NCBI GenBank assembly: GCA_013360675.1
Contig: JABWBB010000004.1
Coordinates: 1-64,000, forward strand
Direction of reading: 5' to 3'
DNA: 64,000 nucleotides
Source of the DNA: Phycisphaerales bacterium
GTDB taxonomy: Bacteria; Planctomycetota; Phycisphaerae; Phycisphaerales; UBA1924
Both the position numbers and the translations under genes were made by a program. Positions within the stretch are counted from its first letter, which is position 1. Each line of letters opens with the position of its first letter. This document shows positions 44,231 to 49,756 of this stretch, piece after piece. The notes beneath the pieces were generated by a model. It was given only the letters and a program-made list of their open reading frames with translations, was not told the DNA's origin and did not search any database.

Positions 44231-44512
44231 TCATCGAGGCATGGGTGCCGCGCCGCGTCCGGTGACCTTGGGCTTCCAGTCGTCGGGCACCTTGTTGGGG
44301 TCGTTCTCGGCCATTTCCTGTGCGGCCTGCGCGTTGGCCTTGATCTGTTCTTGTGCCGCCCGGTACTCGGGGGTCGAGGTATCCGCCCCGCCGCGGTAGT
44401 ACCCCACGATCTGCCACACCGCGATGGCGATGAGCAGGATGGAGATGACGGAGACGCCCACAAACTTCCCGCGGTTCTCGGGGAGCAGCATCTCGGAGAG
44501 CATGGCTTTCAT
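44231..44512 (-). CDS. Small single-pass membrane protein, unknown
   Basis: This 93-residue protein begins [17 protein letters not shown], has one membrane helix ([22 protein letters not shown]) and then a short hydrophilic tail rich in Ala, Gln and Glu. Its ATG overlaps the stop of the upstream pseudopilin (ATGA), so it is translationally coupled to it. Position suggests an accessory factor of that pilin-like protein. I do not recognise the family. Confidence 0.7.
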
Positions 44513-45513
44513 CGGATGTCTCGCCCCTGCACGCCGTTGCGCGTGGCCCAGAAGTACGCCGCCGGGAGCGGCGTGATGTTCCACGGCGTCGAGCCGTTGT
44601 TCGAGTTCCAGATGAAGCCCTGCGGCTGGCCGTACTCAAGCCCGTTGAGCTCGCCGGGTCCGGGGTTCCAGAACCCGGCCGGATACCAGAGACGATCGAC
44701 GGGGTTTTGGCCCGCGGGGCCGGTGTCGGCGATGATCGAAGACATGTCCACGGTCTTGCCGCTCCCGTCGACCATGGCGACCTGCGGCTTGGCCCCGGGC
44801 TGGTGCCACATGGGCGGGACCTTCTGCGTGAAATCCTTGTTCTCGAAGAGTTGCACCTTGGCCGAGGGCGTCAGCACGTCGGTCGTGCGATTGCGTCGGA
44901 TGTAAAAGCGGTTTGCCGCTCCCGCGCCCAGGCGGTTGCCCGGCACGAACCGGGCCCAATCCTGCCAGAAGACGGGCGGATACCAGTACGAACTGGGGAA
45001 GATCCACGAGTAGTTGGTCTGCGCGTTGCCGCCGACATTCTCACGGAACCAGCGCTGCAGGGCGAAATCCTGCGGGGCGGCCATGGTCTTGACCCGCGAG
45101 ATCTTGTCGTCGTCGGCGAAGAACATGTGCCCGGCCCAGTGGTAGCCGTACGACTCGGTGCCGCTGCTGCTCTGCACGCCCTGGCCATAATCCCACGCGT
45201 ATTGATAGAGCCCGTGCCCGACGAGCTGCGCGATCTCCGGCGGCTCGAAGACCACGCAGTACGAGTTCCAGCCGCTCGTGGCGCCAAGGCGCATCGGGCC
45301 AAAGGGGTTCAGGAACTCGTCCTTGTTGTCCGCCTGGTAATACCCCATGTACGTCATGTTCTGACGCAGGTTGGAGAGGCTGACCGTGCGTTGCCCCGCC
45401 GACCGGGCGCGGCCCAGCGCGGGCAGCAGCACCGAGATCAGCAGCGCGATGATCGCGATGACCACCAGCAACTCGATCAGCGTGAACGCGGAACGACGGG
45501 TTCGGGCGCGCAT
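44509..45513 (-). CDS. Type II/IV pseudopilin, planctomycete type
   Basis: This 334-residue protein has the leader [17 protein letters not shown] and the continuation [17 protein letters not shown]: a prepilin-type signal with the conserved Glu at position 5 of the mature helix. The rest is a large exported domain rich in aromatic residues and Asn/Gly, with [14 protein letters not shown] near the DG position of related proteins. AAGGAGA is six bases before the ATG. A TATAAA-like hexamer about 70 bases upstream (minus strand) could be the -10. It is one of two pilins in a row, with a coupled small membrane protein behind it. Confidence 0.87.
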
Positions 45514-45726: not shown

Positions 45727-46596
45727 TCAGGGCAGGCGGAGGTCTTCGAAGACGAAGGCGTAGCGGTCGTTGGCATAGGCCTGGGCGTTGCGACCCGGGG
45801 TGACCAGCAGGTACGCCGCATGCCCGTCCATGAAGCCCATGACCGACTTGTTGATGTCGTCATACCCGTTCTTGAGTGCGAAGCTCGACGAGGTCTGGTT
45901 GGCGATCACGTCGGCATACTGGTCGTGCATCCAGACGAACCGCGAGGGGAGGAAGGCGTCGGCGAACTTCATCCGCTGGCAGCCGAAGTTGAAGGCGTTG
46001 GTGAAGGAAAGGCGCGGGTAAACCTGGTCCCACCACTTCACGTTGAAGTGGTAGCTGGTGCCCACGTCGTCGTAGCTGTTCACGCCCGGGGTCGGGTTGG
46101 GCCATGTGCGCTGATACGTCGCAATATCACCCGGATCCTTGAAGATCGGGAGCTGGAACGTGTTGCGGTCCGGGGCGGCGGAGGCAAGCCGGATCGGCGG
46201 CGGGGGGGCCTCGATCGTCGCGTCATACACGAACGGATTGAGCGGACGGTCGGCGGCTTCCACATCGAAGGCCCCCGCGGCCCAGTAGGACGAGTTGTTC
46301 TTTCCGCCGTAACTCCAGGTGCACCAGCCCTCGAGCGCGCCCGAGGTGGCCGACTGCGACGTGCCGCGCACGTACGACATGGTCAACGGCATGAAGCCCT
46401 TGTAGCTCTCGCGATAGACCAGCGCCGCCGCCGTGATCTGGCGCACGTTGCTCATCGAGATGGTCAGGCGGGCGGCCTTGCGGGCTTTGCCCAGGGCGGG
46501 GAGCAGCAGACCGATGAGCAGTGCGATGATCGCGATGACCACCAGCAACTCGATCAGCGTGAACGCACGATGTGCACGACGTGGAAATCCGATCAT
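45727..46596 (-). CDS. Type II/IV pseudopilin, planctomycete type
   Basis: This 289-residue protein begins with a basic leader (PRRAHRAF) and [20 protein letters not shown], then [19 protein letters not shown]. The exported domain ends with [17 protein letters not shown], the DG-type C-terminus. The N-terminal helix is nearly identical to that of the neighbouring pseudopilin, so these are paralogues. The ATG at 46596 was chosen over a longer reading because it gives a normal prepilin leader. The 5' leader of the transcript carries three tandem hairpins (46614-46666), and the promoter lies at 46708-46737 on the minus strand. It has its own intrinsic terminator. Confidence 0.87.
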
Positions 46597-46613
46597 GGTC
46601 CGACACCCCTTCA

Positions 46614-46666
46614 CCCCTGAACGGGGGGTTGCGTGCCCCACACGGGGCCAATGCCCCGAATGGGGC
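46614..46666 (-). repeat. Three tandem GC hairpins in the pseudopilin leader
   Basis: Two perfect GCCCC-N4-GGGGC stems (46635-46648 and 46653-46666) are centred 18 bases apart, and a third CCCC-N5-GGGG stem (46614-46626) lies next to the ribosome-binding region. GGGGC of one and GCCCC of the next can also pair (46644-46657), so alternative folds exclude each other. They lie in the predicted 5' leader of the gene at 45727-46596. Confidence 0.65.
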
Positions 46667-46707
46667 CAAATGGCGTCCTCCGGCAGTTGCCCGAAGTCGC
46701 CAACCAC

Positions 46708-46940: not shown

Positions 46941-48341
46941 ATGTCTGCCCAACGCATGCCCGAGTCGACAAACCAGCCCGATCCCGGCAAAACCAGCCCG
47001 CTGGCGGGCTCCCGTGCCGCCATGGGGAGCCCTGGCGAGGCGGGGGGGTCGATGGAATCGACCGGACCGACCCCGCCGCCCCCGGCCAGCGCTGACGAGA
47101 TCTTGCAGGAACTGGCCAAGAGTGGGACGAATGTCGACACGATGGTCGGGCGCCTGGTGATCGACCAGGGGCTGGCCACACCCGACGAGGTGCGTCACTG
47201 CATCGAACTTTCACGCGCGCTGGCGCAGGAGCGCAACGAGCGTTCGCTGGCCGAGCTGCTCGTCGACAACGCGTACATCACGCATCGCCAGATGACGCGA
47301 CTGCGCGAGGTGGTGGCGGCGGAGCGTTCGGGGCAGAAGATCCCCGGGTACAAGGTGCTGGGGAAGCTGGGCGCGGGGGCGATGGCCACGGTCTTCAAGG
47401 CCAAGCAGATGAGCTTGGACCGCATGGTGGCGATCAAGGTGCTGCCGCGCAAGTTCACCTCGAGCCCACAGTTCATCGAGCGGTTTTACGCCGAGGGCCG
47501 GGCCGCGGCTCAGCTCAACCACCCCAACATCGTGCAGGCGTACGACGTGGGCAAGGCGGGTGAGTACCACTACTTCGTGATGGAGTATGTGGACGGGAGC
47601 ACGGTCTACGACGAGATCGCGCGGAGCAAGCGCTACAGCGAGAAGGACGCGCTGGACATTGTGATCCAGATCGCCGAGGCCCTGCAGCACGCCCACGAAA
47701 AGGGGCTGGTTCACCGCGACGTCAAGCCCAAGAACCTGATGCTGACCAAGGAGGGCGTGGCGAAGCTCGCCGACATGGGCCTGGCCCGGGCGATCAGCGA
47801 CCGCGAGGCCGCCGAGGCCGAGCAGGGCAAGGCCTTCGGCACGCCCTACTACATCTCGCCCGAGCAGATCCGGGGCGAGTTGAACATCGGCCCGCCGGCG
47901 GACATTTACTCGCTGGGGGCGACGCTCTATCACATGGTCACGGGGAACGTGCCCTTCGACGGGAAGAATCCCTCGGCGGTGATGCACAAGCACCTCAAGG
48001 CCGATCTTGTCCCGCCCGACCACGTGAACCCGCGCCTGAGCGCGGGGATCAGCGAGGTCATCGAGATGATGATGGCCAAGGATGTGAAGCGCCGCTATCA
48101 GAAGTGCGCCGACCTGCTCGCGGACCTGCGCCTGGTGCGCAAGGGCGAGCCCCCGGTCATGGCCCGCAAGGAACTGGCGGGGGCGGCGTTGGCCGGGCTG
48201 GCACAGGCCGAGGCGCAGGCCCAGGGCGAGATCGCCATCGCCCCGACCGAACAGCCCATGGTGCGGGCGTGGCTCTTCTACCTGATGCTGGGCGTGGCGG
48301 CCCTGAGCCTGATCGTAAACGTCGTGCAGTTCCTCACCTGA
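46941..48341 (+). CDS. Membrane Ser/Thr protein kinase with MshEN-like N-terminal region
   Basis: This 466-residue kinase has a Pro-rich front, a helical module resembling MshEN (about 65-125: VGRLVIDQGLATPDEVRHCI and LAELLVDNAYITHRQM), and then a complete Hanks-type kinase domain (about 135-395). Visible motifs are GKLGAGAMATVFKAK, MVAIKVLP, HRDVKPKNLM, ADMGLARA (DMG where DFG is usual) and GTPYYISPEQ. One membrane helix (WLFYLMLGVAALSLIVNVV) ends the protein, leaving almost nothing outside. The sensor is therefore probably the cytoplasmic N-terminal region. The ATG at 46941 may be replaced by the in-frame ATG at 46956. Confidence 0.9.
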   Translation: MSAQRMPESTNQPDPGKTSPLAGSRAAMGSPGEAGGSMESTGPTPPPPASADEILQELAKSGTNVDTMVGRLVIDQGLATPDEVRHCIELSRALAQERNERSLAELLVDNAYITHRQMTRLREVVAAERSGQKIPGYKVLGKLGAGAMATVFKAKQMSLDRMVAIKVLPRKFTSSPQFIERFYAEGRAAAQLNHPNIVQAYDVGKAGEYHYFVMEYVDGSTVYDEIARSKRYSEKDALDIVIQIAEALQHAHEKGLVHRDVKPKNLMLTKEGVAKLADMGLARAISDREAAEAEQGKAFGTPYYISPEQIRGELNIGPPADIYSLGATLYHMVTGNVPFDGKNPSAVMHKHLKADLVPPDHVNPRLSAGISEVIEMMMAKDVKRRYQKCADLLADLRLVRKGEPPVMARKELAGAALAGLAQAEAQAQGEIAIAPTEQPMVRAWLFYLMLGVAALSLIVNVVQFLT

Positions 48342-48388
48342 TCCGCAGGGTGTGCCTGTCGGGGACGAATGGGCCCCGCGATTTCTGC

Positions 48389-48417
48389 TTGCCCCGGGGG
48401 TTGGGATGGGTTAGGCT
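48389..48417 (+). promoter_or_regulatory. Promoter TTGCCC-N17-TAGGCT for infC
   Basis: TTGCCC (48389-48394) and TAGGCT (48412-48417) are separated by 17 bases. The -35 and spacing match the promoter at 20399. Confidence 0.5.
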
Positions 48418-48644
48418 TGTGAGGGCAGTCGGCGGCGTGTGCCGCGGCTTGGCCCTAAGGTGCGCCGCGGAGTGCGGCGTGGATGGTGTGGACGAACTCA
48501 TGCGCGACCAGACGATTCTCGTTGTTGCCGCGCCGAGCGTCAGATGTGACGCACGGCCATGAGTGTTCGTGGAACCCGAGATACCTATGACTACAACGGC
48601 CTGCCCGCATGGTGCGGTGCAGGGCGGGGTGGTTGCTGACTGGT

Positions 48645-48652
48645 GGAGGTGA
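48645..48652 (+). promoter_or_regulatory. infC: Strong Shine-Dalgarno GGAGGTGA that decides the infC start
   Basis: GGAGGTGA, nearly complementary to the end of 16S rRNA, lies just before ATC at 48656. Counting from GGAGGT the spacing is five bases. No such sequence precedes the later GTG (48692) or ATG (48716) codons. Confidence 0.7.
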
Positions 48653-48655
48653 GGC

Positions 48656-49378
48656 ATCGCATTCGGTCGATTCAGCCGTGATTCGGCCCCCGTGCAACGC
48701 ACGCGGGTGAACTTCATGATCAAGATCTCGCCCGTTCGCCTGATCGGGGCGGACAACGAGCAGATCGGCGTCGTCGAGACGTCCGAGGCGCAGCGCATGG
48801 CCCAGGAGGCGGGGCTCGATCTGGTCGAGATCGTCCCCGATACGCGCCCGCCCGTCTGCAAGATCATGGACTACGGCAAATTCAAGTACGAAGAAAGCCA
48901 GAAGGCCCGCAAGAGCCGCGCCGCCAGCAAGGCGACGGAGATGAAGGAGATCCGGCTGGGGCGTTCGGTCAAGATCGACCCGCACGACATCCAGATCCGC
49001 ATCGACCAGTCGCGGCGATTCCTGATGGCCGGGCACAAGGTGATGTTCACGCAGCGGTTCAAGGGTCGCGAGATCGCGCACCGCGAACTGGGCATCGAGA
49101 ATCTGGCCCGCGTCCGCGACGCCCTGGCCGACATCGCCAAGGTCGAACAGGCCCCGCGCTGGATGGGCAAGCAGGCGAGCATCATCATGGCCCCCGACAA
49201 GCCCAAGGTCGAGGCCGTCAAGCGCAAGCTCGAGAAGGAGCGCGCCGAGAAGATCGCCGCGGGTCAGAAGATCGAGGAGGAACGCTCGATCGAGGAACTC
49301 GAGGCCGAACTCGAGGCCCAGAACCAAACGATCGACCCGGGCGACGACGAGACGGGCGACGAGAGCGACAAGGACTGA
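48656..49378 (+). CDS. infC: Translation initiation factor IF-3, AUC start
   Basis: IF-3 binds the 30S subunit, keeps 50S away and checks start-codon pairing. The N-domain reads RTRVNFMIKISPVRLIGADNEQIGVV (core ISPVRLIGADNEQIGVV), and the linker and C-domain run from RPPVCKIMDYGKFKYEE to HKVMFTQRFKGREIAH. I place the start at ATC 48656: it is in frame, follows GGAGGTGA at normal spacing, and adds a basic N-terminus before RTRVN. Rare AUU/AUC starts are known for infC and let IF-3 repress its own synthesis. The protein would have 240 residues, with an acidic C-terminal extension of about 45 not found in E. coli. rpmI and rplT do not follow. Confidence 0.92.
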   Translation: MAFGRFSRDSAPVQRTRVNFMIKISPVRLIGADNEQIGVVETSEAQRMAQEAGLDLVEIVPDTRPPVCKIMDYGKFKYEESQKARKSRAASKATEMKEIRLGRSVKIDPHDIQIRIDQSRRFLMAGHKVMFTQRFKGREIAHRELGIENLARVRDALADIAKVEQAPRWMGKQASIIMAPDKPKVEAVKRKLEKERAEKIAAGQKIEEERSIEELEAELEAQNQTIDPGDDETGDESDKD

Positions 49379-49426
49379 TCCGCCGGCGCAAGCCGTCCGC
49401 TTTGGTCGATGCCTTCAAGAACCCAT

Positions 49427-49453
49427 CACGGCCCTTCGGGGCCGTGTTTTTTT
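49427..49453 (+). terminator. Intrinsic terminator of infC
   Basis: CACGGCCC-TTCG-GGGCCGTG followed by seven T, with a stable UUCG tetraloop, lies 50 bases after the infC stop. infC is thus monocistronic. Confidence 0.92.
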
Positions 49454-49471
49454 CGGTGAACCCAACGCGGG

Positions 49472-49756
49472 CTACCCCTGGGGAGTGCGGATCTCGTCGT
49501 CGATCCGCGGGGCCCACCGACGGGCCTTGGCGGCGTCGAACCGCGCGGGCAGCGTGATGGGTGCGTAATCCAGCAGGTACTCAACCACCGCCTGCACCAC
49601 CCGTGACGGGGCCAGCGTGCCCCCGCACCAGAAGTCATGGTCGGCCCACGAGAGCGTCACCACGTGCGCGGATTCCTGACCGTCGCGACGCACGGCGACC
49701 TCGTAGGACCACCCGGCGGGGGCCTGCGTCTCGGTTCTGACATCCACCACGCGCAT
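49472..49756 (-). CDS. Small conserved-looking protein, unknown
   Basis: This 94-residue soluble protein starts MRVVDVRTETQAPAGWSYEV and has VTLSWADHDFWCGG in its centre, followed by a helix and a basic end. AGGAG lies about six bases before the ATG on the minus strand, which supports translation. It stands between the infC terminator and the divergent permease gene. I do not recognise a family. The central Trp/Asp/His cluster could be a functional site, but this is only an impression. Confidence 0.7.
   Translation of the reverse strand: MRVVDVRTETQAPAGWSYEVAVRRDGQESAHVVTLSWADHDFWCGGTLAPSRVVQAVVEYLLDYAPITLPARFDAAKARRWAPRIDDEIRTPQG

Follow-up and report, generated by a model that had tools for sequence, protein, structure and literature searches.

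The infC gene of a Phycisphaerales bacterium is in all likelihood translated from an AUC codon at position 48656 of the window (the whole 64,000-nucleotide stretch of DNA analysed here), which would give an IF3 of 240 amino acids (fMet-AFGRFSRDSAPVQRTRVN...). The evidence comes from the pairing of a strong Shine-Dalgarno (SD) sequence with the correctly spaced ATC and, above all, from comparison with the infC genes of relatives. An AUC-started infC is an ordinary case of a phenomenon already known in other bacteria; here we describe how consistently such starts are kept among these planctomycetes, which exceptions occur, and what this may mean for the control of IF3.

The infC locus and its candidate starts

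The infC coding sequence occupies positions 48656-49378 on the + strand, and the family membership of its product is beyond doubt: the protein matches the infC equivalog TIGR00168 (187 bits), carries the two Pfam domains in the expected order, IF3_N at residues 18-86 (PF05198, 101 bits; 48707-48913) and IF3_C at residues 95-180 (PF00707, 87 bits; 48938-49195), and finds IF3 among its PDB matches. Beyond IF3_C lies a C-terminal extension (49200-49375) of about 55 residues, charged and ending in an acidic tail (DPGDDETGDESDKD). About 300 bases upstream of infC ends a serine/threonine protein kinase gene on the + strand (46941-48341; PF00069), and farther away two adjoining genes on the - strand (44509-45513 and 45727-46707) each show a type IV pilin-like N-terminal methylation motif (PF07963).

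Positions 48645-48658 read GGAGGTGA GGC ATC, where the first eight nucleotides (48645-48652, + strand) form the SD sequence and the ATC (48656-48658) is in frame with infC at an aligned spacing of 7 nt. An in-frame TGA at 48650-48652 closes the reading frame, which is open for 241 codons from 48653, and rules out starts farther upstream; infC must therefore start between 48653 and the IF3 domain. The start-like codons up to and at this domain are ATC 48656, GTG 48692, GTG 48707 (within RTRVN) and ATG 48716. The preliminary description had placed the SD sequence, the ATC, the GTG at 48692 and the ATG at 48716 correctly, in both letters and coordinates.

Pairing energies were computed with the anti-SD sequence CACCTCCTTT, taken from five relatives in the family because a contig end truncates the 3' end of the organism's 16S gene. 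The SD sequence ahead of the ATC pairs at -14.7 kcal/mol. For GTG 48692 the only SD match is GTGAT, 14 nt away, while ATG 48716 is preceded by GGTGA (48706-48710, + strand), which pairs at -6.9 kcal/mol with an aligned spacing of 9 nt. The earlier statement that the only strong SD sequence serves the ATC thus holds with respect to GTG 48692, but is too strong for ATG 48716, whose GGTGA had been overlooked. In the same way, the basic N-terminal stretch that an ATC start was said to place before RTRVN is present, but it is only mildly basic (AFGRFSRDSAPVQ).

How much weight can such a motif carry in a GC-rich window? GGAGGTGA occurs twice where 2.4 occurrences are expected, and GGAGG followed after 4-8 nt by ATC occurs 13 times where 16.9 are expected, so that the combination of SD sequence and ATC is not beyond chance on window data alone. 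Because these motif statistics stay at chance level, the claim for the start rests on the comparison with relatives, and this comparison indicates that the motif stands far above chance.

Start codons of infC in relatives

Of 301 genomes of the order that were searched at the protein level, 290 yielded an infC; 130 loci were read. Starts were scored by taking SD sequence and codon as a pair, with an aligned spacing of 5-10 nt and a pairing energy of -4.5 kcal/mol or better; calling each start by the single strongest SD match was tried and dropped, since stronger chance matches occur elsewhere and many loci were missed. With paired scoring, ATC, ATT or ATA follows an SD sequence in 114 of the 130 loci and ATG, GTG or TTG in 8, while five decoy codon sets score between 6 and 24. 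Within the same family, 107 of 115 infC genes have ATC or ATT behind the SD sequence (98 ATC, 9 ATT), mostly at a spacing of 7-8 nt; the automatic count of 108 was lowered by hand because the call for one locus (L008), made at an internal ATC, was false; this locus belongs with the ATG cases. An alignment of upstream regions had been suggested as one way to check the proposed start, and at the homologous position it finds ATC or ATT behind an SD sequence in nearly all of the family and most of the order. The pattern extends farther: ATH with an SD sequence is found in 49 of 90 further planctomycete loci and in 64 of the 78 named infC loci, most of which belong to other phyla (e.g. Actinomycetota, Pseudomonadota). 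Three single planctomycete loci have other codons at the SD-spaced infC position, namely GTC (L235), CTG (L250) and GTT (L266).

The alignment of 64 gap-free loci tells where protein coding would begin. Over the 12 codons before the ATC, amino-acid identity stays at 0.06-0.18 in all but one, the codon containing the SD sequence, where it reaches 0.47; after the ATC, up to RxN, nine of 13 codons show 0.43-0.88 and the four variable ones 0.16-0.27. The 64 loci were chosen partly by their ATC column, whereas the identity step on either side played no part in the choice. Read from the alignment, this step, which falls exactly at the ATC, is the pattern expected of a coding start there, and it speaks against either GTG 48692 or ATG 48716 being the main start. 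Furthermore, in 10 of the 13 codons after the ATC variation is highest at the third position, a pattern indicating that selection acts on the codons right behind the start.

It is very improbable that translation begins instead at GTG 48692 (48692-48694, + strand), yielding a protein of 228 amino acids and leaving the upstream SD sequence unrelated to infC. This GTG is a canonical start codon that keeps the IF3_N domain whole, and it is the one that a mechanical ORF finder takes, just as the preliminary description had foreseen that gene callers would shorten the protein. However, it has no SD sequence at working distance, the codons between the ATC and it are conserved as protein, and 39 loci of the family have no ATG, GTG or TTG at all from the upstream stop to the IF3 domain. 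A start at ATG 48716 driven by the weak GGTGA has next to no probability: relatives frequently have ATG at this codon (49 of 64) and GGTGA lies at an aligned spacing of 9 nt, but such a protein would lose RTRVN (R and N invariant in the 64 loci) together with the first residues of IF3_N, the ATG is the internal Met of a conserved N-[HF]-M-I-R stretch, and GGTGA sits within conserved codons. The AUC at 48656 is thus the reading that we carry forward, as the preliminary description had proposed.

Exceptions within and beyond the family

The preliminary description had named a well-spaced ATG or GTG elsewhere in relatives as evidence that would count against an ATC start, and of this there is essentially none. 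Eight family members (L005, L007, L008, L010, L015, L019, L026, L027) have an ATG at the codon homologous to codon 3 of the window's gene (TTC); in seven of them the SD sequence has kept its former position and is 12-13 nt away from the ATG, where most ATC/ATT relatives have 7-8 nt, and in L019 the spacing is 4 nt. A further locus, L030, has both the ATC and the ATG at codon 3, as expected of an intermediate, but in the phylogeny it is placed away from the ATG loci. In a tree of 30 IF3 proteins, two changes are required to account for the ATG label, and the ATG at codon 3 may have a single origin. The existence of these members indicates that the weak start is dispensable in the family; as a guess, the longer SD spacing may itself keep initiation weak.

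Another kind of exception is found in a different planctomycete order. In 12 of 13 infC loci of the families f27, f48 and f72 (L233, L241, L313-L322) an ACG follows a strong SD match of 5-7 nt at a distance of 7-9 nt, and these 12 loci have no ATG, GTG, TTG or ATH with an SD sequence at working distance ahead of the IF3 domain. The same ACG pattern is seen in L301, of family f18. We predict that ACG is the likely infC start conserved across that order; a limited literature search found no bacterial ACG case.

Discussion

Non-canonical infC starts have been described before. The gene starts at ATT in E. coli and at ATC in Streptomyces, in line with what the preliminary description had said of E. 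coli and other bacteria, and IF3 autoregulates its own translation (PMC5472188); in most Streptomyces species the annotated start is wrong (PMC5472188). In S. aureus an AUA start was found by retapamulin profiling (PMC13009471), and B. subtilis uses AUU (PMC1805508). AUC, AUU and AUA starts of infC, as well as the repression by IF3 of its own AUU-started gene, are thus already published (PMC5472188, PMC13009471, PMC9410913). The present gene is the same as that of E. coli and likewise has an AUH start of the kind that IF3 discriminates against (PMC5472188, PMC9410913), but its codon is AUC where E. coli has AUU, rplT is not beside it, and its IF3 has an acidic C-terminal tail. Streptomyces infC shares the very codon, in a different phylum (PMC5472188); the genes of S. 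aureus and B. subtilis likewise begin at a non-canonical AUH codon, which in S. aureus is preceded by an extended SD sequence (PMC13009471, PMC1805508), but differ in the third codon base and in phylum. Streptomyces sigR, which has a GTC start and is repressed by IF3, also combines a strong SD sequence (AGGAGGTG) with a codon rejected by IF3 (PMC5472188); unlike infC, its control does not act on IF3 itself.

By homology with E. coli, it is quite probable that IF3 represses its own synthesis through the AUC start in this planctomycete. The strong SD sequence would bring the 30S subunit to the infC mRNA, and IF3 itself would reject the pairing of AUC with the initiator tRNA. When IF3 is scarce, AUC would be tolerated and IF3 made; when it is plentiful, initiation at AUC would be aborted, and the outcome would be negative feedback on the level of IF3. 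Alternatively, the AUC could merely set a low expression level, with the feedback inoperative in this lineage, a reading that we consider unlikely. In its favour, the feedback is carried over to this lineage by homology, the infC-rpmI-rplT operon context of E. coli is absent, and a subclade with ATG exists. On the other hand, codons that IF3 rejects are conserved across phyla, which is easier to reconcile with feedback than with low expression alone, and low expression could be had from a weak SD sequence, yet the one here is strong.

As for the operon, rplT was looked for close downstream of infC and lies on another contig (C31, with infC on C17); directly 3' of infC is a stem resembling an intrinsic terminator with its T run (49427-49446, + strand; one found where shuffles give 0.8). 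Given the separation from rplT and this stem, the E. coli arrangement is not shared. No Rfam element is found in the window, and the folding stability of the region around the infC start does not exceed that of shuffled versions (z -0.21); nothing thus points to an RNA operator. The interval 48300-49500 yielded no sigma-70-like promoter.

These results correct where an essential gene starts in a large group of mostly uncultured bacteria, and they show that a start codon against which IF3 discriminates is kept across an order of Planctomycetota. Gene callers confined to ATG, GTG and TTG would place the infC start wrongly or cut the gene short in nearly all of these genomes. More tentatively, and with somewhat less than even confidence, we suggest that weak infC initiation is what is conserved, not one codon: by AUC, AUU or AUA, by ACG in most of one planctomycete order, or, in an ATG subgroup of the window's family, by an SD sequence 12-13 nt off. 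If this is true, these genes would form a natural series for testing the evolution of IF3 feedback. The loci with ACG, and those whose ATG stands at an unusual distance from the SD sequence, are natural variants with which IF3 feedback can be tested.
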